Part shown: one piece after another, positions 240 through 41,538 of the stretch
How the letters are laid out: each line of letters opens with the position of its first letter
Numbering within the stretch: the stretch's first letter is position 1
From: a virus
Direction: 5' to 3' (one strand)
IMG/VR virus record: IMGVR_UViG_3300047171_000035
Coordinates: 1-41,538 of that record
Length of the DNA: 41,538 nt
Translations under genes and position numbers: made by a program
Notes under the pieces: model-generated
What the model saw: the letters and a program-made list of their open reading frames with translations, nothing else
Told to the model about the DNA's origin: nothing
Databases searched by the model: none

Positions 240-3200
240 TTAGACCGGAACCGGCGTCTCGAAATCGGCGATCGTGTGTTCTTCTTCGCGGGCACGTTTG
301 GCGGCGCGGCGATGGTCGCGTTTGTCGACGGCGCCCATGATGTACGTATACATGACGGGGACGAGTGCGAGCGTTAAGATCAGCGAGCTTATGAGGCCGC
401 CGATGAGCACGGTGCCCATCGACGCGCGTTGCTCGGCACCTTCGGTGATGCCGAGCGAGAGCGGCAACATGCCGAAGATCATCGCGCACGTCGTCATCAA
501 AATCGGCCGGAAGCGCGTCGCCGCCGCAGCCTTCATCGCATCGTAAACGTTGAGGCCGTACTTGCGACGCTGCTGATTCGCGTAATCGACAAGCAAGATG
601 CCGTTCTTGGCAACGAGCCCGAAGAGCATCACGATCGCGATGAGCGAAAACAAGTTGAGCGTTTGATGCCGGATCGCGAGGCCGCCGAGCGCGCCGACGA
701 CCGCGACCGGCACCGAGAACATCACGACGAACGGCTCGACGAACGAGCCGTACAGCACGACCATGAGCATGTAGACGAGCAAGAATGAGGTGAGCAACGC
801 AAAGCCCATGCTCGAGAACGTTTGGTTATAGAGATCGGCGTCGCCGTCGGCGGCGACGTGGACGCCCGGCGGCAAGAAGCCCGGCGTGTCGAGCGCTTTC
901 TGCACGGGCGCGAGGATCGTGCCGAGCGAGACGCCGAGGTTGGGATCGACGTTCGCGGTCACGCGCACGACGCGATTGCGCGCCTGGCGAATGATCTTCG
1001 TCGGCGCCTTCGTCATCGTGAAATCGGCGACGCGCATGAGCGGCACGAGGGTCCCGTCGGACGCGCGCACTTGGAGCCGTTCGACCGTCCCGAGATCGTT
1101 GCGTTCATCGGCCGGTAGCTCGAGGCGCACGTCGGTGAGCCCCGTTTCGAGTCGCACCTTCGTCGAGACGACGCCGCCGATTGCGATGCGCGCGATCGTC
1201 GCCGCGTCGCCGGGCGAGACGCCGAGCAACGCCGCGCGCGCCGGATCGATGCGAATATCCAAACGCGGACCGTCTTGCGACGCGCTCGTATCGACGTCGA
1301 TAGCACCTTTTTGCTGTTTTAGCAATGCCGCAAGATTTTGCGATGCACCATCGAGTTCGGCATCGGGACCCGTAAGCGTGAAGACTACGGCCGCACCGCT
1401 TCCGCTACTGGAATCCGTCGCGATCTGATAGGCGGCGCCGGGAACGAGATAGCCGAGTTTGCGCGCGTCGGCAAGCACGCGATCCTGTTCGCGACGGCGC
1501 GTTTTCTCCAGGAGGACCGTGAACTGCGCGAGATGCCCGCCGAGATCGGCGCCGAAGCCGTTGGGCTTCGTACCGACGGTCGTAAGGATCGATTGCACGC
1601 CGTCGATTTTGAGCAGCGCGTTCTCTAAACGCGATACGCCCGCTGCGGTCGTCGCTAGCGGCTGACCGATCGAATACTGCAGCGAGCCTTGCAACACGCC
1701 GGTGTTTCCCGACGGCACGAACTCCGAGCCGATGAAGCCCAGCGGCACGAGGGTGATCGACGCGGCGACGAGCAACAGACACGCGATCGGCACGATCGGC
1801 CGATGCGAGAGAAACCACGGCAAGAGCCGCTCGGCGTAATAGCGGCCGACCGCTTCGAAGCCGTTCTGGAACCACGCAGCCCACCATGGTACTTCCGGAC
1901 TGCGCTTTTTCACGGACCAGCGCCCCGCGAGCAGCGGCGTCAGCGTGAACGAGACGAAGAGCGAGAACAGCGTGGCGACCACGATCACCATGCCGAACTC
2001 TTTCATGTACTTGCCGACGATGCCCGAGAGAAAAGCGATCGGCAAGAAGACGACCACGTCGACGAGCGTGATCGCGATCGCCGCGTTCCCGATCTCGGTC
2101 CGTCCGTTGAACGCGGCATCGAGTGGACGCTCGCCCATATCGCGATGGCGCGTGATGTTTTCGAGTACGACGATCGAATCGTCGACGAGGATGCCGATCG
2201 TGAGGCCGAGGCCCATAAGCGAGATGACATCGATCGTGAAGCCGAGCAGCTTCATCACGATGAACGTCGCGAGCAGCGACGACGGGATCGCGATCATCAC
2301 GACGACGGCGTTGCGCCACGCGTGCAGGAAGAGCAGCATCACGATCGCGGTGAGAAAGATGCCTTCGATCAAACTCTGCAACACGCCGTTGACGGAGCTC
2401 TGCGTGTAATCGGCGGATGCGTTGACTTCAGTGAATGTGACGTACGGAAACTCTTTGGCCAGCGCCGCGAGTTCCGTGCGCGCGGCGGCGGTCGACTTCA
2501 CCGTATCCGCGTCGTTCTGCCGCTCGATGTTGAGTAAGAGGGACGGCGCACCGTTGAAATGCGACGGCCGCCGTTGTTCGACGTGTCCGTCTTCGACCGT
2601 CGCGAGGTCGCCGATTTTCACGTTGCTCTGCGCACCGCCGGAGATCGGGATCGGGATCGCGAGGATGTCGGAGGCCTTCTGCACGTCCGCGTGGACGGAG
2701 ACCGTCGTCTCGAGCGTCGGCGCATCCATGCGGCCACCTGGCAAATTCGCATTATTGTGCGCGAGGATCGAATCGAGATCGATCAGCGTCGCGCGCGTCA
2801 TCGCGAGCCGCTGGCTATCGGGAAAGACGTGAATCTCGCGCGCGGTATCCCCCGCAACCTCGACGTCGAGTATGCCCGGGACGGCCTTGAGATCGGGCAC
2901 GATACGCTGGGAAACCAGATACGAAAGTTCCGACGGCGAGAGCTTCTTCGAGGTCAAGGCCTCTTCGATGATCGGGTCGCTCTCGGAGCCGTCTTTGAAC
3001 ACGACCGGCGGATCGAGATCGGTCGGCATGTAGATGCGCGCGGTATCGACGCGGCGTTGCACGTCGATCGTTTCGTAGTTGAGATCGGTATCGAGCCGGA
3101 AGCGCGCGATGACGGTCGCTTGGCCTTCTTGCACGGTCGCCGAAAGGCGATCCATGTTTTCCATCCCGTCGAGCTGATCTTCGATCGGCTTGACGACGAG

Positions 3201-3383
3201 CTTCTCCATCTCGGAGGGCGAGGCGCCCGGGTACGATGCGCTTACCCCGACGATCGGGAACGCGACGTTGGGGAAGAGGTTGACGCCGAGCTGTTTGTAC
3301 GAGAAAAGACCGTACAAGGCGAGCCCGATGAAGACCATCGCCGTGATGACGGGTCGCGAAATAGCAAATCGGGTCAACCACAT
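240..3383 (-). CDS. RND-family efflux transporter, inner-membrane pump subunit
   Basis: This 1047-residue protein has the length and layout of AcrB/MdtB-type hydrophobe-amphiphile efflux pumps. These use the proton gradient to export drugs or other small molecules together with a periplasmic adaptor and an outer-membrane channel. It starts with TM1 (FAISRPVITAMVFIGLALYG) and the usual LGVNLFPNV turn. TM4 carries GILVDDSIVVLEN with the paired proton-relay aspartates, and TM10 carries GLVAKNGILLVDYA with the conserved lysine. ATG 3383 has AGGAG 8 bp upstream. No adaptor or outer-membrane gene lies in the window. Upstream is the tRNA fragment and prophage, so the pump appears to be transcribed alone. 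Codon use is GC-rich, unlike the phage genes. Substrate cannot be told. Confidence 0.95.
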   Translation of the reverse strand: MWLTRFAISRPVITAMVFIGLALYGLFSYKQLGVNLFPNVAFPIVGVSASYPGASPSEMEKLVVKPIEDQLDGMENMDRLSATVQEGQATVIARFRLDTDLNYETIDVQRRVDTARIYMPTDLDPPVVFKDGSESDPIIEEALTSKKLSPSELSYLVSQRIVPDLKAVPGILDVEVAGDTAREIHVFPDSQRLAMTRATLIDLDSILAHNNANLPGGRMDAPTLETTVSVHADVQKASDILAIPIPISGGAQSNVKIGDLATVEDGHVEQRRPSHFNGAPSLLLNIERQNDADTVKSTAAARTELAALAKEFPYVTFTEVNASADYTQSSVNGVLQSLIEGIFLTAIVMLLFLHAWRNAVVVMIAIPSSLLATFIVMKLLGFTIDVISLMGLGLTIGILVDDSIVVLENITRHRDMGERPLDAAFNGRTEIGNAAIAITLVDVVVFLPIAFLSGIVGKYMKEFGMVIVVATLFSLFVSFTLTPLLAGRWSVKKRSPEVPWWAAWFQNGFEAVGRYYAERLLPWFLSHRPIVPIACLLLVAASITLVPLGFIGSEFVPSGNTGVLQGSLQYSIGQPLATTAAGVSRLENALLKIDGVQSILTTVGTKPNGFGADLGGHLAQFTVLLEKTRRREQDRVLADARKLGYLVPGAAYQIATDSSSGSGAAVVFTLTGPDAELDGASQNLAALLKQQKGAIDVDTSASQDGPRLDIRIDPARAALLGVSPGDAATIARIAIGGVVSTKVRLETGLTDVRLELPADERNDLGTVERLQVRASDGTLVPLMRVADFTMTKAPTKIIRQARNRVVRVTANVDPNLGVSLGTILAPVQKALDTPGFLPPGVHVAADGDADLYNQTFSSMGFALLTSFLLVYMLMVVLYGSFVEPFVVMFSVPVAVVGALGGLAIRHQTLNLFSLIAIVMLFGLVAKNGILLVDYANQQRRKYGLNVYDAMKAAAATRFRPILMTTCAMIFGMLPLSLGITEGAEQRASMGTVLIGGLISSLILTLALVPVMYTYIMGAVDKRDHRRAAKRAREEEHTIADFETPVPV

Positions 3384-3522: not shown

Positions 3523-3575
3523 TGGTGCGCGAGACTGGACTCGAACCAGCACGTCCTTGCGAACGTTAGCACCTC
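3523..3575 (-). tRNA. Partial tRNA-Leu (3' half), prophage attachment-site remnant
   Basis: Read on the minus strand, the segment begins inside an anticodon loop (TTGAGGT, anticodon GAG = Leu). It continues with the 3' anticodon stem GCTAA, a long type-II variable arm, the T-arm (CTGG TTCGAGT CCAG), the acceptor strand CTCGCGC and an encoded CCA at 3523-3525. The sequence before the loop (TTACA) does not pair with GCTAA, and no D-arm or 5' acceptor strand follows, so the 5' half is missing. Half-tRNA remnants of this kind mark the site where an integrase recombined a phage into a tRNA gene. The breakpoint near the anticodon loop matches common tRNA-type attachment sites. Confidence 0.85.
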
Positions 3576-26389: not shown

Positions 26390-27070
26390 TTATTTGCCTT
26401 TGTAATTCCAGGGCAGTGTATGTTCAAGTCTAGTGGTCGCCTTAAGGTCTCTTTGTTCAGAGTCACGTTCATTTTCTTCGAGGCCTTTCAGCAAATCAAA
26501 AACGGCTTGAAGGCTATGGGTGTAACGCCTTAAGCCTCGGCCAAAAGCGTGACCCGCGTTGCCTGCGTCGTCTGATTGCCCCTCTGCGGCGGCTATCAAC
26601 GGGTTAGCTATTGCAGCCCGGTAAAGACCGAAGAAGCCAGTCTCCGCATCATTGAGAGTTTCACTCGCTCGGAAATACGCTTCGAAAGTCCCTTGTTCGG
26701 CTTTCGGAAATGGAACGTTTTCACTGCGAGACTCTTGTCGGTCGATATCCTCTAACTGAGCTACATCTTTGTCTAGCTTACTCGTTTCAAGTTGAAGATG
26801 CTTGGTATGCGTTGCTGCCACCTCAATAGTGGCCAAGCCCGGTTCGCTAGTGTCGAAATCATTCATAATCGAAGTCGCTGCGTGATTGTAACCGTTGATG
26901 TGGTCCAGAATGCTGCGGTCAAACTCTTGATACTGCTCGTAATAGCGATGTTCTAAGCTCGCATCTTCTCTTAGAGTCGCGGTCGCGTTAAGTTTTGCAA
27001 TGTATTTCGGAACTAAGAAAATTGCGGCCAGACCAAAAATTAGAACGACGCAGATAAGGGCTACTTTCAT
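26390..27070 (-). CDS. Membrane-anchored helical protein, cargo gene (226 aa)
   Basis: The protein begins MKVALICVVLIFGLAAIFLV, a single membrane anchor or uncleaved signal. About 195 residues follow, mostly charged alpha-helix (LEHRYYEQYQEFDRSILDHI, ETSKLDKDVAQLEDIDRQ), compatible with a periplasmic helical bundle. No enzymatic motif is visible. ATG 27070 has AAGGG 6 bp upstream, inside the shared leader word GCCTCGTAAGGGC. It is divergent from the PIN-like gene at 27185 and is followed by strong terminators, so it is an independent unit inserted between the terminase genes. A role at the envelope, such as superinfection exclusion, is only a guess. Confidence 0.7.
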   Translation of the reverse strand: MKVALICVVLIFGLAAIFLVPKYIAKLNATATLREDASLEHRYYEQYQEFDRSILDHINGYNHAATSIMNDFDTSEPGLATIEVAATHTKHLQLETSKLDKDVAQLEDIDRQESRSENVPFPKAEQGTFEAYFRASETLNDAETGFFGLYRAAIANPLIAAAEGQSDDAGNAGHAFGRGLRRYTHSLQAVFDLLKGLEENERDSEQRDLKATTRLEHTLPWNYKGK

Positions 27071-27075
27071 GTTAC

Positions 27076-27165
27076 GCCCTTACGAGGCTGAATAACGAAA
27101 ACCCGGCTATGCGAGCCGGGGTCTTATTAGGGCGAATGATTTCTTATGAGACGCCTCGTAAGGGC
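27076..27165. promoter_or_regulatory. Divergent control region with 13-bp perfect inverted repeat and central hairpin
   Basis: GCCCTTACGAGGC (27076-27088) and its exact reverse complement GCCTCGTAAGGGC (27153-27165) flank the region between the divergent starts 27070 and 27185. In the middle, CCCGGCT (27102-27108) pairs with AGCCGGG (27114-27120) around a 5-base loop, terminator-like. The two arms could be sites of one regulator controlling both directions, or remnants of recombination between two copies of the cargo leader. Confidence 0.6.
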
Positions 27166-27184: not shown

Positions 27185-27673
27185 ATGGCAAAACGATTCT
27201 TGTTCTTAATCGACAATACGAACCCGCACCTCACTGGCTACTTTCCACGAAGCTGTAGCTTGAACGATGTTGGCTTAGATACGGACGCCTCGGACCCCGA
27301 TATTTTTCGCAGGGCTCTTGATAAAGAGCTTACCATCGTGTCCCGTAACGATAGACATTTTTTCCAGTTGATGCGAGATGCTGCAAACCGAAGCGGAGTA
27401 GTCAATTGCGCGGGTGACGGTTACGGCTTGGTCAATCCGCATGAAAAGAAAATCAACTACGATGATATCACGCGGCGATTGAAGTACGGCGGTCATCGAA
27501 TCGACTGGGAAGATGTTCGTCATTTCAACTTAAAGGTCTCGCTCGGAGCGACGGACCCAATTGTTTCAACCCTGCCGAGATGCAAGATTCATCTAGCAGA
27601 ATGTAGCGACCCTAAGATATGCGACTACAATCCAGTTTTTCGAATGCTTGGGCTGGATAAGGCGTCAACGTGA
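27185..27673 (+). CDS. PIN-like (DUF5615/Mut7-C type) putative nuclease, module copy 1 (162 aa)
   Basis: The N-terminal 65 residues fit the DUF5615/Mut7-C PIN-like pattern: FLIDNTNPHL with Asp10, SDPDI with Asp37/Asp39, and TIVSRND with Asp56 before HFF. Such proteins are Mg-dependent RNase-like folds found in defence and toxin-antitoxin settings. Residues 70-162 are not part of that core but are strongly conserved in the second copy (NPH, DDITRRLKY, HFNLKVS, DPIVSTLPRCK). GAGGAG lies about 8 bp before ATG 27185. The stop codon overlaps the next start (TGATG), so the pair is coupled. Activity is unproven; one core acidic position differs from copy 2 (Arg-His replaces Ala-Asp after Asp56). Confidence 0.75.
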   Translation: MAKRFLFLIDNTNPHLTGYFPRSCSLNDVGLDTDASDPDIFRRALDKELTIVSRNDRHFFQLMRDAANRSGVVNCAGDGYGLVNPHEKKINYDDITRRLKYGGHRIDWEDVRHFNLKVSLGATDPIVSTLPRCKIHLAECSDPKICDYNPVFRMLGLDKAST

Positions 27674-28524
27674 TGTTTCGAAATAAGAAACGGCAATTAC
27701 CAGAACCCGACTACCGCATCTTTGGCTCTTTGATGGTCCTCCTAATTTTCCTCAGTGCCATCATTATTCTGATTAACAACCCTAGCTTCCAACACGACGC
27801 GAACAAAGATAAAGTTGTTACTGACTCCTTTTTCATTGGCATCGTTACGCTCTGCGGCGTTTTAGTTCAAATTGCGCTCGCTGCGTTGGAATTAAACCTA
27901 GTACGAATAGACCTAGCGCGTTCGTTGCGCGAATCAGAATTATGGGTGTATGGTCTTTTCTTCGAAACGTTTGCTTTCGACGAAGATTCGGATGCGGATA
28001 TCACGTCCGCACCAGTTCAGGGCTTGTTTTTAAATTTATGGAACGATGGGGACAAGCACGACTTACTCCGAACTGTCATCGTAGGGGTTCACAGTCGATT
28101 TCACCATTACAAACTACACCCAAAAAGTAAGCTATGGAAGGAAGGTAACTGGGTTGCAGCCAGCAACGGCAGTTACGCGAACTTCATCTTCTATAAGCTC
28201 GTAGACTCTGAGCCAATCTACGTGAAAGACTTTATCGAGCTTCCCGTATTAATGTTTCAATTCAGAACACGACGACCAGAAACTTGGTACTACAATCCGC
28301 TCGATGAAAATGCCACTAGGGCCACGAACATCTTCGTGCGGGTGTCGTATGAATACGGTCGCAATCCACAAGAGCGATATCACTACGCGCCGCTCAGAGA
28401 TACCATCCGTGAAAGTAAGCTCACAAAGCCAATCGACGTTCGAACGAGACGCGACGACGGCAAGCAAATAGGTCCCTTCAACGAGTCGTATTCACTGGAC
28501 AGCCCTGGTGTTTTTGATTCGTAG
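27673..28524 (+). CDS. Membrane protein coupled to PIN-like copy 1 (284 aa)
   Basis: ATG 27673 overlaps the stop codon of the PIN-like gene (a GTG one codon earlier is possible). Two membrane segments lie at about residues 18-36 (FGSLMVLLIFLSAIIILI) and 52-75 (SFFIGIVTLCGVLVQIALAA). A 210-residue soluble C-terminal domain follows (ELNLVRIDLARSLRESELWV, FETFAFDEDSDAD, VRVSYEYGRNPQERYHYAPL). I know no family for it. The strand-rich tail domain could be periplasmic or cytoplasmic. Translation coupling suggests it works with the PIN-like protein, perhaps as a membrane effector or anchor. Confidence 0.75.
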   Translation: MFRNKKRQLPEPDYRIFGSLMVLLIFLSAIIILINNPSFQHDANKDKVVTDSFFIGIVTLCGVLVQIALAALELNLVRIDLARSLRESELWVYGLFFETFAFDEDSDADITSAPVQGLFLNLWNDGDKHDLLRTVIVGVHSRFHHYKLHPKSKLWKEGNWVAASNGSYANFIFYKLVDSEPIYVKDFIELPVLMFQFRTRRPETWYYNPLDENATRATNIFVRVSYEYGRNPQERYHYAPLRDTIRESKLTKPIDVRTRRDDGKQIGPFNESYSLDSPGVFDS

Positions 28525-28755
28525 CCGTACGCGATATCCTGGCCGTGGGAGAGGTCGTTACGGCTTTTGGGTGCCGGGGGTAGGGGACACCCTCGCTTCG
28601 CTCGGGAACCTTTTAGCCTAGCGGCCCGGGGGTGTGAATGCATCACTTTCCGACGAGTTTTATGCATCGGATGCATAGATTTGCCTTGACTTCGGGTTCG
28701 GGTTTTGCATTGGTTCAGTACTGAATCAACAAACCCTAATTTCATGATGTAGACT
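28525..28755. other. Gene-free region rich in palindromes between convergent cargo and small terminase genes
   Basis: No gene is seen. The left part is GC-rich with hairpin-prone CCCTCGCTTCGCTCGGG (about 28,592-28,609) and GGCCCGGGGG. ATGCATC occurs at 28638-28644 and 28662-28668, and ATGCAT again at 28671-28676. At 28710-28729 there is a near-perfect 20-bp palindrome centred on TTCAGTACTGAA. It may hold terminators for the two converging genes. Its place next to the small terminase gene also makes it a candidate packaging (pac/cos) region, which is inference. Confidence 0.45.
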
Positions 28756-29412
28756 CTACAAACTGGAATCCAACTCCGTCTGATTGCCCGCGTTGTTGAC
28801 ATTGACTTGAACGTTCACCGAATCGCCATCAGAGTACAACCCTAGCGTTTTTGCTATTTGCTCTAGGACGCGCGAACCCGGATGAGCTTTGTCTAATTCG
28901 TTGTTGTAGACCGTGTAGAGCTTGCTGCGACCTACGAGATAGAAAAGACCTCGCTTCCATTCTTCAAGCGCAGTGAGAAACAGAATCTCGTTGTGCCATG
29001 CATAGATGGTGTCTGTGTGTACCCCAACTTTAGCAGCGACTTCCGCAACGGATTGCTTGGGACCAACGAAGTCACACAGCAGTTTGATAGCGGTCATCTG
29101 AGTGGTCGTCAGTTTGGACTGGGCTGGGTCAACGTAGTAAGTGTTCAAGGTCGGAAACTTCAAAGACTCGCTCCGTATCTCATCATCGAATGATGGTGCC
29201 GGAACACCCGGTAAAAGAATCGGAACTAACTCACCCGTCTTGACCTTGTGTTCTACGAGCGATTCAGCGGGACGCATGGGATTCTTAGGCCGTTTACGGT
29301 ATCCGTTGCTTTCCTTGAGAGAAGCCACTGCATCTGTTACTGCTGCTTGTTCTTCGTCAGTTGGTTCTAGTGAAATTGGTTTTAAAATTTTCTTTTGTCT
29401 ACCTACTGGCAT
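28756..29412 (-). CDS. Terminase small subunit-like DNA-binding protein (218 aa)
   Basis: The central part (residues about 105-165: LTTTQMTAIKLLCDFVGPKQ, SVAEVAAKVGVHTDTIYAWH, then FLTALEEWKRGLFYLVGRSK) is a helix-turn-helix of the phBC6A51/terminase-small type, which recognises the packaging site and helps large terminase. The N-terminus is basic (GRQKKILKP) and likely disordered. The C-terminus (NVQVNVNNAG) is a short strand region seen in related small terminases. ATG 29412 has TGAGGT 7 bp upstream. It is 2.5 kb upstream of large terminase because cargo genes have been placed between them. Confidence 0.75.
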   Translation of the reverse strand: MPVGRQKKILKPISLEPTDEEQAAVTDAVASLKESNGYRKRPKNPMRPAESLVEHKVKTGELVPILLPGVPAPSFDDEIRSESLKFPTLNTYYVDPAQSKLTTTQMTAIKLLCDFVGPKQSVAEVAAKVGVHTDTIYAWHNEILFLTALEEWKRGLFYLVGRSKLYTVYNNELDKAHPGSRVLEQIAKTLGLYSDGDSVNVQVNVNNAGNQTELDSSL

Positions 29413-29484
29413 TTCTTTACCTCACATGAGCTTTCATTATTTTTTTCCTTCCAAGCCTTCAGTACACAAAGACTCTTACTTTGC

Positions 29485-29498
29485 GTCTCGTAAGAGAC
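29485..29498 (+). promoter_or_regulatory. Palindrome just before PIN-like copy 2 (operator candidate)
   Basis: GTCTCGTAAGAGAC is a 5-bp inverted repeat (GTCTC/GAGAC) around GTAA, ending 7 bp before the ATG at 29506. Its middle repeats the CTCGTAAG word of the other cargo leaders, so a repressor site or an mRNA hairpin over the ribosome site are both possible. Confidence 0.5.
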
Positions 29499-29505
29499 TT
29501 TCACG

Positions 29506-29997
29506 ATGGCTAAGACTTACAGATTTCTCATCGACAACTCGAACCCGCATTTACTGCATCATTTTCCGGCGAGTCAGAGTCTACGCGACGTGGGCCTAGA
29601 CGAGTCTGCTCCTGACGATGCCATTTTAAGCGAGGCGATAGCCAGAAGCCTTACCATTGTCACCAGAAACGACGCGGACTTTATTCGACTCATGCGCGAT
29701 GCTGCAAAACGTAGCGGTTTTGAGAACTGTACCGGAGATGCATACGGCCTGGTAAATCCGCATGGTCGAAGAGTCAATTTCGATGATGTTACTCGTCGCC
29801 TTAAGTACAACGATATAAGGATTGATTGGACCGACGTCGCGCATTTCAACTTAAAAGTATCAATTGGTACAAATGACCCCATTGTTTCGACCCTACCACG
29901 ATGTAAGTTCCATGTTGCGGACTGCAATGACCCGGATGGATGTGGCGACTATCAGCTTTTCCGAAGGCTGGGCCTGGACAAAGTAGTTTACGAATGA
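29506..29997 (+). CDS. PIN-like (DUF5615/Mut7-C type) putative nuclease, module copy 2 (163 aa)
   Basis: A paralogue of the protein at 27185-27673, well over half identical along the whole length. The PIN-like acidic set is more complete here: Asp10 in FLIDNSNPHL, Asp37/Asp38 in APDDAIL, and TRNDADF with Asp56 and Asp58, the classic T-x-D-x-DF ending of the DUF5615 core. The shared C-terminal half carries ENCTGDAYGLVNPH, DDVTRRLKY, HFNLKVS and three conserved cysteines (CKFHVADCNDPDGC). The ATG is 7 bp behind the palindrome at 29485-29498. The stop overlaps the next start (ATGA). Predicted cytoplasmic nuclease; target unknown. Confidence 0.77.
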   Translation: MAKTYRFLIDNSNPHLLHHFPASQSLRDVGLDESAPDDAILSEAIARSLTIVTRNDADFIRLMRDAAKRSGFENCTGDAYGLVNPHGRRVNFDDVTRRLKYNDIRIDWTDVAHFNLKVSIGTNDPIVSTLPRCKFHVADCNDPDGCGDYQLFRRLGLDKVVYE

Positions 29998-30515
29998 TTC
30001 GTAAGGCGTTACCTCGTATCGGGACGAGCGTGGGCGACGACAGAATGGAGACCGCAGAAGATAGACGCTTAGCACGGCTTTATTACCGTTTAGGTCTCTT
30101 ACTTTGGACCATTTGTGCGGTTGTCGTCGTAGTGTTTCATAGGCCGAGCTTTAATTCGTGCGATGACAGCTTGTCTTTGCCAAAAACGATTGTTGCTTTG
30201 CCCCTAGGCATTGTTTTCTACTTTCTTTTGATTGGCTTATGGGCCACACTCGGATTAATCTACAAAGGCCGAATAGCAGACGTTCCCCGCGACATTTTCC
30301 CGGTGTTCACGAAACCTGTCGTAAGGAGCTACCGTCTTGCGCCCGGATTCACTACGACGGCGTTCTTTGCGCTAATGCTTTATGGTGCAACAATGACGTT
30401 TCGATACGATATTCGTTACCATGCCGAATATGCCCGAATTCACGACCGCGTTTCAGGCAACTGGTTCACGGAGAGATTCGTCGATTGTCCCGAAGATGGC
30501 AACGATGATAGATGA
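29994..30515 (+). CDS. Membrane protein coupled to PIN-like copy 2 (173 aa)
   Basis: ATG 29994 overlaps the upstream stop as ATGA, which I prefer to an upstream in-frame ATG at 29940. GTG 30030 and ATG 30045 are later alternatives. Three membrane segments are visible: YRLGLLLWTICAVVVVVF, TIVALPLGIVFYFLLIGLWA and FTTTAFFALMLYGATMTF. The tail is short and polar. It is not similar in sequence to the membrane protein of module 1, so the modules pair related PIN-like proteins with different membrane partners, as immunity or exclusion systems often do. No known family recognised. Confidence 0.7.
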   Translation: MIRKALPRIGTSVGDDRMETAEDRRLARLYYRLGLLLWTICAVVVVVFHRPSFNSCDDSLSLPKTIVALPLGIVFYFLLIGLWATLGLIYKGRIADVPRDIFPVFTKPVVRSYRLAPGFTTTAFFALMLYGATMTFRYDIRYHAEYARIHDRVSGNWFTERFVDCPEDGNDDR

Positions 30516-30537
30516 GCGCATGATTCGTTAAGCAGTA

Positions 30538-30550
30538 CCTCGTAAGGGCG
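30538..30550 (+). promoter_or_regulatory. Cargo leader word CCTCGTAAGGGCG before the 30555 gene
   Basis: The word supplies the ribosome site (AAGGG, 6 bp before GTG 30555). It is part of a longer stretch, ATGATTCGTTAAGCAGTACC plus this word, that is a clear copy of the sequence at 29994-30020 and resembles 27136-27165. See the finding on shared leaders. Confidence 0.5.
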
Positions 30551-30554
30551 TCGG

Positions 30555-31103
30555 GTGCGAAGTAAGAATCCACCGAAAGAACCCCGGTCGAGTCGAGTGC
30601 TCCGCTACTTTACGTGGGCTATTGTAATCGTCGTAGTGTCGCTTATCGGCTACACCGTAATTATTGTCGTGTACTCAGGTGTGAAGGTCGCAATGCAGCC
30701 AACCCCTTCGCCGTCACCCTATCAGAAGAAACTTATTATCTCGGATGACTGGTATGGCTTCCCGGTCGTCGTTGGTCAGAAGTATCGCGCGATGGAAGGC
30801 TTCATCTCAAAATCTGATTCTGACGGGGCGGATGTTGATGCTGAGGACCTTCTTCATTTCCGAGATTTAGGAATGAAGAATCAAATAATGACCTCCTACA
30901 ACATTCCAACGTACCGCCATTATGGAGGAACGAATGAACCTTCAGCACCGGAATGCACGGTAGCCGACCAAGACCCGATTGAGATAGTCAAGAATCCGGC
31001 GAGCGGACTAGGGTACAACACCCCGGCAAAACCGATTCACTGCACCTTGAATGATGGAACCAACTTTTACGCACTCTCACTAGACCGCGATAAGAGATTT
31101 TAA
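30555..31103 (+). CDS. Single-pass membrane protein, cargo gene (182 aa)
   Basis: Start GTG 30555 has AAGGG 6 bp upstream. A basic N-terminus (MRSKNPPKEPRSSR) precedes one membrane segment (YFTWAIVIVVVSLIGYTVIIVV), then a Pro/Ser linker (PTPSPSPYQ) and a soluble domain of about 130 residues that should be periplasmic (KLIISDDWYGFPVVVGQKYR, then PAKPIHCTLNDGTNFYAL). Two cysteines late in the domain could form a disulphide. No family recognised. It is the last gene of the plus-strand cargo block and is followed by a terminator. Confidence 0.65.
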   Translation: MRSKNPPKEPRSSRVLRYFTWAIVIVVVSLIGYTVIIVVYSGVKVAMQPTPSPSPYQKKLIISDDWYGFPVVVGQKYRAMEGFISKSDSDGADVDAEDLLHFRDLGMKNQIMTSYNIPTYRHYGGTNEPSAPECTVADQDPIEIVKNPASGLGYNTPAKPIHCTLNDGTNFYALSLDRDKRF

Positions 31104-38153: not shown

Positions 38154-38531
38154 ATGCCGAACGAGAAAAGGCCAAACACAAAAAGAAAACTCACACCAAC
38201 CACGGTGCCAAAGCAATCTTGGTGGCTTTCGGCTTTGAAATGGACCGTTGAGAAGTTCGCCATCCCTATCGTTGTCGGCATCATCGTGCTTATTGCGGGC
38301 GGTTGGTACAATCGGGCGCAAACGGTTCCGCCTCCGGCTCAGTCATTCCAAGCCGTCGCTACGAATCCACCGATTGGAAGTAACGCAGGCTCAGTTCACG
38401 ATAATTCTTTTGAGAACATAACAAGCGTCGGCGGCGAACGAGGAGTCGTCAACGGATACGGCTCTTACGATAACCACTTTAAGAACGTGAAGTGCATCAA
38501 TACCAAGGAATGCGTCCACAACGGGCCTTGA
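38154..38531 (+). CDS. Membrane-anchored protein, paralogue 1 (125 aa)
   Basis: A basic N-terminus (MPNEKRPNTKRKLTP) precedes one membrane segment (KFAIPIVVGIIVLIAGGWY). A Pro-rich stalk containing VATNPPIGSN follows, then an Asn/Gly-rich domain (HDNSFENITSVGGERGVVNG, YGSYDNHFKNVKC) with the rhythm of a short beta-helix, and two cysteines. The topology predicts the C-terminal domain outside the inner membrane. The protein at 39427-39924 shares the stalk and the terminal domain. No clear ribosome site precedes the ATG. Confidence 0.65.
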   Translation: MPNEKRPNTKRKLTPTTVPKQSWWLSALKWTVEKFAIPIVVGIIVLIAGGWYNRAQTVPPPAQSFQAVATNPPIGSNAGSVHDNSFENITSVGGERGVVNGYGSYDNHFKNVKCINTKECVHNGP

Positions 38532-39426: not shown

Positions 39427-39924
39427 ATGGCTAAAAAGAAAAATAAGCCGAATGTCGCTCGAAAAATCGTAGCGCCTCCATCCAAACCTGAGCCTTCGCT
39501 ATGGCAACGGCTCATAGTTCTGCTTCGTCTCGCTCTGAAAGCGGTTGGAACGTCGATTAGATGGCTCTTCACGGAGAGACAGCCCGCAGTAATTGTTCTT
39601 CTTTTCCTTGCCTTTGCTCCGGTCTACATTCCGAAAGCAATTGACGCAATCCACCCCGCTCCACTCCCTTTGCCCCAGTCCGTCGCTACCGCTCCACCAA
39701 TGGGAAGTGTTAGTAACGAAGATGCTGATTCGAGTTTAGGATGCAATTCTTTTCAGCACATCGGAGCTTCGTCAACATCCACTCATGCAGTCGGAATCAG
39801 AATCGAAGGCGGATGCTCGAAATTCTACGATACTAACATTAAAACCAAGGGAGACGGCATCCAAGTGACTGGCGGTCGTAGCAGTTTTCACAAAACAGTG
39901 ATTAATCGACAATCGCAGCCGTGA
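39427..39924 (+). CDS. Membrane-anchored protein, paralogue 2 (165 aa)
   Basis: ATG 39427 is preferred over an in-frame ATG at 39310 because the conserved leader ends exactly there. A lysine-rich start (MAKKKNKPNVARK) precedes an amphipathic stretch and one membrane segment (AVIVLLFLAFAPVYIPKA). A Pro-rich stalk with SVATAPPMGS matches paralogue 1, and a Gly/Ser/Thr-rich C-terminal domain (IRIEGGCSKFYDTNIKTKGD, then IQVTGGRSSFHKT) resembles beta-helix turns. The outward-facing domain and paralogy suggest surface or periplasmic interaction. The stop overlaps the next start. Confidence 0.65.
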   Translation: MAKKKNKPNVARKIVAPPSKPEPSLWQRLIVLLRLALKAVGTSIRWLFTERQPAVIVLLFLAFAPVYIPKAIDAIHPAPLPLPQSVATAPPMGSVSNEDADSSLGCNSFQHIGASSTSTHAVGIRIEGGCSKFYDTNIKTKGDGIQVTGGRSSFHKTVINRQSQP

Positions 39925-40292
39925 AAGAAACTCTCCTGACTTACGTCATCGAATATCCGGGAACGAATCTCGTGAAGTTCGGACAAGCAAAATATTTCGT
40001 AGACCGTTTCGCGCAATTAAAGACGGGTTCGCCCGTCATCCCCGTGGTCATCTGTCTGTTCAGAGGCGCGAAGCACGAACGAGACTTTCACAAAAAATTT
40101 GCTCACCTCAGACATCACGGTGAATTCTTCCATTTCACCGCTGAGGTAAAACATTATCTACTGGGGCCGGAAATGGAGCCGCATCGCATGACATTGGAAG
40201 AAGGTCATGCATACTCACCACGCATTGAACGGACTGCTGAACGGCTTAGACGCGAAAAGCGCGAGGCAAAAGCTTTAGCAGAGAACCTCTAA
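39921..40292 (+). CDS. GIY-YIG family protein (MUG113/T5orf172-like), 123 aa
   Basis: Residues 6-85 follow the divergent GIY-YIG pattern of the MUG113/T5orf172 group: LTYVIEYPGTNLVKFGQAKY (the two-strand 'YV...VKxG' start), VDRFAQLKTGSP with its arginine, an ERDFHKKFAHLRHHGEFFHF segment with the H..F....GEWF-like ending, and a helix. Such domains are small nucleases in phages and mobile DNA. The first tyrosine motif is degenerate (YVIEYP...VKF), so activity is uncertain. GTG 39921 overlaps the preceding stop. It is followed by a long gene-free, structured region. Confidence 0.7.
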   Translation: MKETLLTYVIEYPGTNLVKFGQAKYFVDRFAQLKTGSPVIPVVICLFRGAKHERDFHKKFAHLRHHGEFFHFTAEVKHYLLGPEMEPHRMTLEEGHAYSPRIERTAERLRREKREAKALAENL

Positions 40293-41430: not shown

Positions 41431-41538
41431 TTAGGCCACGGATAAATGTGGCGTAAGTGATTTTTGGTATTTCTCCGCGAACTCGCGGGGCGTTAGGTAA
41501 CGAAGGGTCTGATGCGGGCGAACCTCGTTGAAGTCGAT
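41431..41538 (-). CDS. IS3/IS481-type transposase, C-terminus only (cut by window edge)
   Basis: Reading in from the right edge on the minus strand gives IDFNEVRPHQTLRYLTPREF, then AEKYQKSLTPHLSVA and stop TAA at 41433-41431. The block (Y/F)NxxRPHQxLxYxTPxEF is the well-known end of DDE integrase-core transposases of the IS3 and IS481 families. Only 35 residues are visible, so completeness and exact family cannot be judged. It marks an IS inserted in or at the edge of the prophage. Confidence 0.85.
   Translation of the reverse strand: MDFNEVRPHQTLRYLTPREFAEKYQKSLTPHLSVA

Follow-up and report, generated by a model that had tools for sequence, protein, structure and literature searches.

The viral record IMGVR_UViG_3300047171_000035 is an incomplete sequence of 41,538 bases with one end missing, and its full length is referred to here as the window. 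Two plus-strand genes in it, PIN1 and PIN2, encode related DUF5615-type PIN-like proteins and flank a minus-strand small terminase gene (28756–29412). They are accompanied by further cargo genes and by a repeat of about 34 nucleotides (nt) with the core CCTCGTAAGGGC, five copies of which occur in the window, each just 5′ of a cargo gene start. Since five starts carry one repeat, the six cargo genes that they serve are probably switched on together as a co-regulated set, separate from the packaging operon; the head and packaging genes run on the minus strand. The cargo genes, identified as open reading frames (ORFs), and the repeat copies are as follows.

26390..27070, minus: cargo gene between the large and small terminase genes (ORF; one N-terminal hydrophobic segment, residues 3–21)
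27185..27673, plus: PIN1, DUF5615-type PIN-like protein with a C-terminal tail (ORF, Pfam, alignment)
27673..28524, plus: TM1, membrane protein with a remainder of about 200 residues (ORF; two hydrophobic segments)
29506..29997, plus: PIN2, paralogue of PIN1 (ORF, Pfam, alignment)
30030..30515, plus: TM2, membrane protein, start uncertain at 29994, 30030, or 30045 (ORF; two hydrophobic segments)
30555..31103, plus: TM3, further cargo gene (ORF; one hydrophobic segment)
27076..27109, minus: repeat copy before the 26390 gene (5 nt to ATG; core conserved)
27132..27165, plus: repeat copy before PIN1 (19 nt to ATG)
29464..29497, plus: repeat copy before PIN2 (8 nt to ATG; core conserved)
29990..30023, plus: repeat copy between PIN2 and TM2 (6 nt to GTG 30030, 21 nt to ATG 30045)
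30516..30549, plus: repeat copy before TM3 (5 nt to GTG)

The PIN-like Proteins

An earlier account of this DNA, made from the letters and their ORFs and called here the sequence-only reading, had described two paralogous PIN-like ORFs on either side of the small terminase within a phage late operon. Both ORFs exist at 27185–27673 and 29506–29997, and they do flank the small terminase, among minus-strand head and packaging genes. Their products are 62% identical, with dN at 0.29, dS not computable, and codon-position identities of 69, 78, and 39%. The tail (residues 77–160) is more similar between the two than residues 1–76 (67 versus 59%). Because identity is at 62% and dS is beyond computation, PIN1 and PIN2 are old paralogues under constraint, the tail included.

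Both proteins pass the Pfam cut-off for DUF5615 (PF18480), with 25.1 bits for PIN1 and 27.9 for PIN2 versus 23.8. The match covers the core, spanning only profile positions 16–76 (PIN1) and 16–63 (PIN2) of 110. In contrast to the family, the two proteins carry an extra tail of about 85–95 residues after the core, with the motifs IDWxDV...NLxV and PRC, for which the family libraries scanned return no match. At E ≤ 0.01, each of the seven sequences of the alignment matches a single Pfam family, DUF5615. Residues D10, D/E28, D37, and N55, a D-[D/E]-D-N set of the PIN type, are kept in 7/7 of them; with the aid of the VapC alignment, we take these to be the catalytic positions. Within the tail, the seven rows keep W108, D110, V111, N115, L116, P131, and C133. 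The tail of 95 residues had been described as conserved with three cysteines. Its conservation stands, and the cysteine count is corrected to four common to PIN1 and PIN2 (C75, C133, C140, and C146), of which three lie within the last 30 residues and C133 alone is invariant across the seven aligned relatives. Neither PIN1 nor PIN2 has a hydrophobic segment in the hydropathy scan that gave the segments of TM1 and TM2.

The proteins had also been likened to Mut7-C (PF01927). The DUF5615 part of that assignment is borne out by the cut-off, whereas membership in Mut7-C was rejected: neither protein matches PF01927 at E ≤ 1, and the profile alignment stops within the core. In hhalign, the profile of the family aligns with nine Mut7-C proteins over the core only (72%, E 3.5e-5) and more weakly with three short PIN-like proteins picked by the Mut7-C model (28%, E 6.5e-4). 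In the relatives L023 and L024, the C-terminus carries two CxxC pairs. PIN1 and PIN2, with three cysteines at this end, lack the C-terminal Cys4 zinc finger of Mut7-C. Mut7-C and PIN folds are described as only distantly related in PMC11347159.

A search of the Protein Data Bank (PDB) with the two-row PIN1 and PIN2 profile gives weak, unrelated matches only, while the seven-row profile picks up VapC chains (E 0.007) in an alignment of some 29 residues. Codon usage gives modest support to PIN1, TM1, TM3, and the 26390 gene and is about zero for PIN2 and TM2. In PIN1 and PIN2, the coding score is slightly exceeded by that of one reverse frame, which, however, holds 6–7 stops.

The Start-Associated Repeat

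The sequence-only reading mentioned neither the five start-associated repeats nor the third plus-strand membrane gene at 30555–31103. A matrix trained on the copies scores the weakest of them at 29.0 bits, versus 8.9 for the next site in the window and at most 14.4 in 20 single-base shuffles. As this matrix is self-trained on five copies, leave-one-out tests (weighed below) and shared-k-mer tests were added. With leaders picked after the repeat had been seen, an 8-mer is common to four of the five tagged leaders, which none of 5000 random sets reaches, and a 9-mer is common to three, which was reached once in 5000. The stretch CTCGTAAG alone occurs seven times in the window (four in copies, three elsewhere) versus 1.3 expected.

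RNA folding of the five leaders yields no common structure (z from −2.2 to +0.8, the lowest with a separate hairpin). Scans of the region give 2 promoter-like sites versus 5.9 in shuffles and 7 terminator-like sites versus 6.1; with such counts, both scans are uninformative. A terminator-like hairpin at 27102–27120, readable on both strands, lies between the minus-strand 26390 gene and PIN1.

The closest description that was found concerns cluster K mycobacteriophages, whose start-associated sequences are short repeats placed a few nt 5′ of non-structural gene starts, in the position of the ribosome-binding site (PMC3203893). The window repeat has the same placement, at 5, 5, 6 (GTG 30030), 8, and 19 nt before non-structural starts. 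The consensus differs, being CCTCGTAAGGGC in the window and the 13-bp GGGATAGGAGCCC in cluster K, as does the copy number, with five in the incomplete window record versus 11–19 per cluster K genome, and the hosts are unrelated (PMC3203893). The 2011 paper leaves the function of these sequences open (PMC3203893), and a 2025 paper speaks of a role in gene regulation as proposed (PMC12699233). If the co-regulation is true, the window repeat would be a separate case of start-associated sequences beside those of cluster K. It would single out prophage genes that may belong to one regulon, and the block would be testable as a unit.

The Membrane-Protein Neighbors

In line with the earlier account, the start of TM1 overlaps the stop of PIN1 (TGATG), both partners are membrane-like with two hydrophobic segments each, and TM1 and TM2 have no common sequence (BLASTP E 13). 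The corresponding overlap claimed for the second pair is present as ATGA at 29994 and is doubtful, as this ATG lies inside the 34-nt repeat at 29990–30023. The in-frame GTG 30030 and ATG 30045 follow the repeat and give a gap of 32 or 47 nt between PIN2 and TM2, and Shine–Dalgarno matching leaves the choice undecided. The ATGATT of this copy is also present in the PIN1 and TM3 copies, without serving there as the start of a cargo gene. Because of this, TM2 appears at least as likely to have a start element to itself and to begin 3′ of the repeat, at 30030 or 30045, as to begin with the 29994 overlap.

Relatives of TM1 were found neither in viral contigs or phages nor in any of 147 Eremiobacterota genomes, and none of TM2 in phages. 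The 26390 gene has no family match in the Pfam, PHROG, and PADLOC scans.

Relatives of PIN1 and PIN2

Of the 149 Eremiobacterota genomes searched with a profile of PIN1 and PIN2, five (G029, G046, G052, G072, and G107) carry a full-length relative, and repeating this search with the seven-row profile returns the same five. Three weak matches that cover at most part of the tail were dropped: G127 (E 7e-4, positions 42–109 only), G020 (E 6e-4, positions 27–66 only), and G013 from a separate set of 13 genomes (E 0.0012, positions 27–89 only). In the genome scan, the members from G052, G072, and G107 fall under the curated DUF5615 cut-off and that from G046 is not listed. The DUF5615 core itself is above the cut-off in 34/147 Eremiobacterota genomes, so that rarity within the phylum applies to the long form and not to the core. 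For the relative from G107, the tail has a weak RPB9 match (E 0.0025), which was not used.

Outside these chromosomes, PIN2 has no relatives in phages, plasmids, or viral contigs (in phages and plasmids, the single-sequence query from the window was PIN2 only), the PIN1 and PIN2 alignment none in viral contigs or genome contigs, and the PIN proteins of the chromosomal relatives none in plasmids, viral contigs, or phages. The seven-row profile finds the long form in none of five genomes, which include Alphaproteobacteria and Burkholderiales-, Gemmatimonadaceae-, and Bacteroidales-titled entries. Larger groups centered on Burkholderiales, Gemmatimonadaceae, and Bacteroidales give 0/398, 1/395, and 0/345 genomes and no full-length match, negatives that are weak because at most 9–10 candidates per genome were scored with no positive control. 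The single match is partial (positions 4–71 in a 120-residue ORF). One record, L014 (G150), may carry a wrong title: it is labeled Alphaproteobacteria, but a search of its phylum brings up the same genomes as that for a Bacteroidales record. The window prophage and Eremiobacterota genomes are the only sources in which these searches found full-length members. The term DUF5615 was not found in the open-licence PubMed Central (PMC) papers searched, and among the matches listed for Eremiobacterota with prophage or phage, none is, by its title, on phages of the phylum.

Proposed Function

The locus is read here, tentatively and with low confidence, as a co-regulated cargo (moron) block of an Eremiobacterota prophage, placed on either side of the small terminase and most likely serving defense of the lysogen. 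In its favor are the host flank and tRNA end described below, the repeat copies with their common 8-mer, the PIN-type residue set, and the constraint on both paralogues. PIN1 and PIN2 would be metal-dependent endoribonucleases whose tail (PRC...C...C) would recognize RNA or a partner and keep the nucleases quiet. The small membrane proteins, made alongside, would act at the inner membrane as sensors or blockers of phage entry. Upon superinfection, the PIN nucleases would cut tRNA or mRNA, and the incoming phage would be stopped, such that the block may guard the host cell from other viruses. Direct contact of each PIN protein with its neighboring membrane protein is only weakly inferred, because the tight overlap is clear for PIN1 and TM1 alone. 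It is unlikely that the locus represents a prophage defense regulon new in kind for Eremiobacterota, in which a phage-specific start element would turn on a set of swappable small genes in lysogens, and an undescribed long PIN subfamily, with its core and cysteine-containing tail, would be combined with changing membrane proteins against superinfection. If the defense reading is true, the long PIN nuclease subfamily would join the candidates for anti-phage defense.

Several described systems offer partial precedents. According to PMC13092281, DS-3 is a PIN defense system acting alone, and DS-5 is one that depends on another protein and probably does not represent a toxin–antitoxin pair. Both require the PIN nuclease for defense, a precedent by description and without sequence comparison, and the partner in DS-5 is a DUF5830/AcrIF4-like protein, unlike the membrane proteins of the window (PMC13092281). 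RexAB, likened here by description only (PMC12894663), joins a cytosolic and a membrane protein, both prophage-encoded, against other phages, but RexA is DNA-binding and not a PIN protein. The SNIPE nuclease works at the membrane while phage DNA is entering, a setting also proposed for the window cargo; in contrast to PIN1 and PIN2, which have no hydrophobic segment, it is itself membrane-bound (PMC13190303).

A number of results weigh against the defense reading. None of the six cargo proteins scanned (6/6) has a PADLOC match at E ≤ 0.1. AlphaFold2, run on the two window PIN sequences only, gives a mean pLDDT of 35.4 and no usable fold; with a value of about 35 from two sequences, the PIN assignment is one made from sequence. 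For the repeat, only 3/5 copies beat every other position when left out of the matrix over the full 34 nt. Because conservation in the remaining two is confined to the core, they are not significant over this length: among 82,975 other positions, 60 reach the score of the 26390 copy and 57 that of the PIN2 copy. Beyond the prophage, the repeat was not found in viral contigs, with a pattern that fits 2/5 window copies; its two exact matches there are both within unrelated genes. At the five chromosomal relative loci, it reaches at most 12.8 bits versus 27.9 for the lowest plus-strand copy listed.

The pairing of PIN and membrane proteins, whose constancy the sequence-only reading had proposed to check, is likewise missing at most relatives. 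A membrane-like partner is absent at 4/5 chromosomal loci, and the sole overlapping case is marginal: the ORF that follows the PIN gene at G052 has a GTG overlapping the PIN stop and shows a single, borderline hydrophobic segment. G072 has a soluble ORF starting 8 nt downstream of the PIN gene, and G029, G046, and G107 have only small doubtful ORFs (94, 78, and 102 residues) in which no hydrophobic segment is seen. Membrane-protein pairing is not a feature of the family. Since the relatives are mostly without a membrane partner, a finding that the earlier account had itself named as counting against it, its two-gene-module form is weakened. The weak matches of the G052 partner to Cas1 (PADLOC E 0.008) were taken as chance.

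Enrichment of defense genes around homologues had also been named as a check. In favor of the defense reading, defense- or island-type neighbors occur at 3/4 scanned chromosomal loci: G107 has DUF4238 and an Mrr-like enzyme (PADLOC mREase_IV, 257 bits), G046 has a ResIII helicase plus an AbiJ-like domain that scores below its cut-off, and G072 has DUF3800. The scan covered 10 chosen neighbors at 4/5 loci with no control set, the scanned neighbors at G029 match no known family, and those at G052 were not scanned against Pfam. The link to defense is suggestive only.

Alternative Explanations

A somewhat unlikely alternative is that the genes are unlinked lysogen cargo. The PIN proteins would be lone RNases in another role, such as RNA processing or prophage or host regulation, the membrane proteins would act separately (e.g., by altering the cell surface), and their adjacency would be an accident of insertion. 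The lack of a membrane-like partner at four of the five chromosomal relatives is consistent with this, as are the unrelated sequences of TM1 and TM2, the possibility that PIN2 and TM2 are separate start units, and the tagging of TM3 and the 26390 gene without a PIN gene. Chance adjacency is harder to reconcile with the PIN1–TM1 overlap and the overlapping ORF at G052, which resemble coupled translation, and with the defense-type neighbors at several relatives.

Quite improbable is a toxin–antitoxin-like addiction module, in which a VapC-like PIN toxin, silenced by its neighbor or its own tail, would stabilize the prophage. The PIN residue set is present, and the PDB matches to VapC noted above, which share a D...T-x-N-x-x-x-F pattern and leave out the tail, are joined by a weak NCBIfam score for the G107 relative (21 bits versus a cut-off of 143). 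However, no antitoxin family, VapB-like or other, was found among the window neighbors scanned, there are solitary relatives, and the neighbor in the window is a membrane protein, which the VapB antitoxin is not.

Instead of a control element, the repeat could be a recombination boundary, with cargo swapped via a short common sequence, which would explain one PIN family beside changing membrane genes. The copies do lie at gene borders on both strands, and the PIN gene alone is common to both sites, but this explanation is the least probable of the three: the constant orientation and the spacing of 5–19 nt to starts (TM2 at GTG 30030) point to expression, the searches turned up no related prophage that could reveal swapping, and such a boundary would not preclude a regulatory role.

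A recent duplication of the whole module was rejected, as dS is not computable and the membrane partners are unrelated; the earlier term "duplicated two-gene module" is overstated for a locus in which only the PIN gene is paralogous, at dN 0.29 and 39% third-position identity.

Prophage Setting and Other Genes

The following features place the cargo in its genomic context.

240..3383, minus: AcrB-type RND transporter gene, host flank (Pfam ACR_tran, 776 bits)
3523..3553, minus: 3′ end of tRNA-Leu (GAG), probable attachment site (17-nt core match, ARAGORN)
28756..29412, minus: small terminase gene, setting and not cargo (PHROG terminase small subunit, E 3.6e-6)

The best full-length relative of the AcrB protein is in a Candidatus Eremiobacterota genome (76% identity). 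The 17-nt core of the tRNA end is exact in 3/56 loci (L003, L006, and L007), always inside a tRNA-Leu(gag) gene called by ARAGORN. The same program places tRNA-Leu(gag) upstream of the same AcrB gene in 6/8 Eremiobacterota-type relatives, about 0.07–1.9 kb away, and calls none near it in the other two (L004 and L008). The window itself holds no complete tRNA gene, and the attachment repeat is not seen in it because the other end of the prophage is missing. Because an AcrB host flank and a tRNA-Leu(GAG) 3′ end are both present, the window is inferred to be a prophage integrated at the tRNA-Leu(GAG) of an Eremiobacterota host. This agrees with the earlier view of the cargo, opposite in strand to the packaging genes, as serving a lysogen. 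The large terminase matches 1340 phage records, every one at below 60% identity, and has no relatives in viral contigs or in any of the 149 Eremiobacterota genomes.

At the contig edge, a 33-residue frame (41440–41538, minus) resembles by eye the end of an IS3-type transposase. A second diverged related pair of plus-strand genes, 38154–38531 and 39427–39924, has one hydrophobic segment each and a common Q(S/A)VAT-PP-GS-like stretch (BLASTP E 1e-5 in a single comparison), and both leaders contain the ATAAGGGGT stretch. The small plus-strand gene at 39921–40292 overlaps the end of the preceding gene and matches MUG113 (PF13455; E 6e-6).

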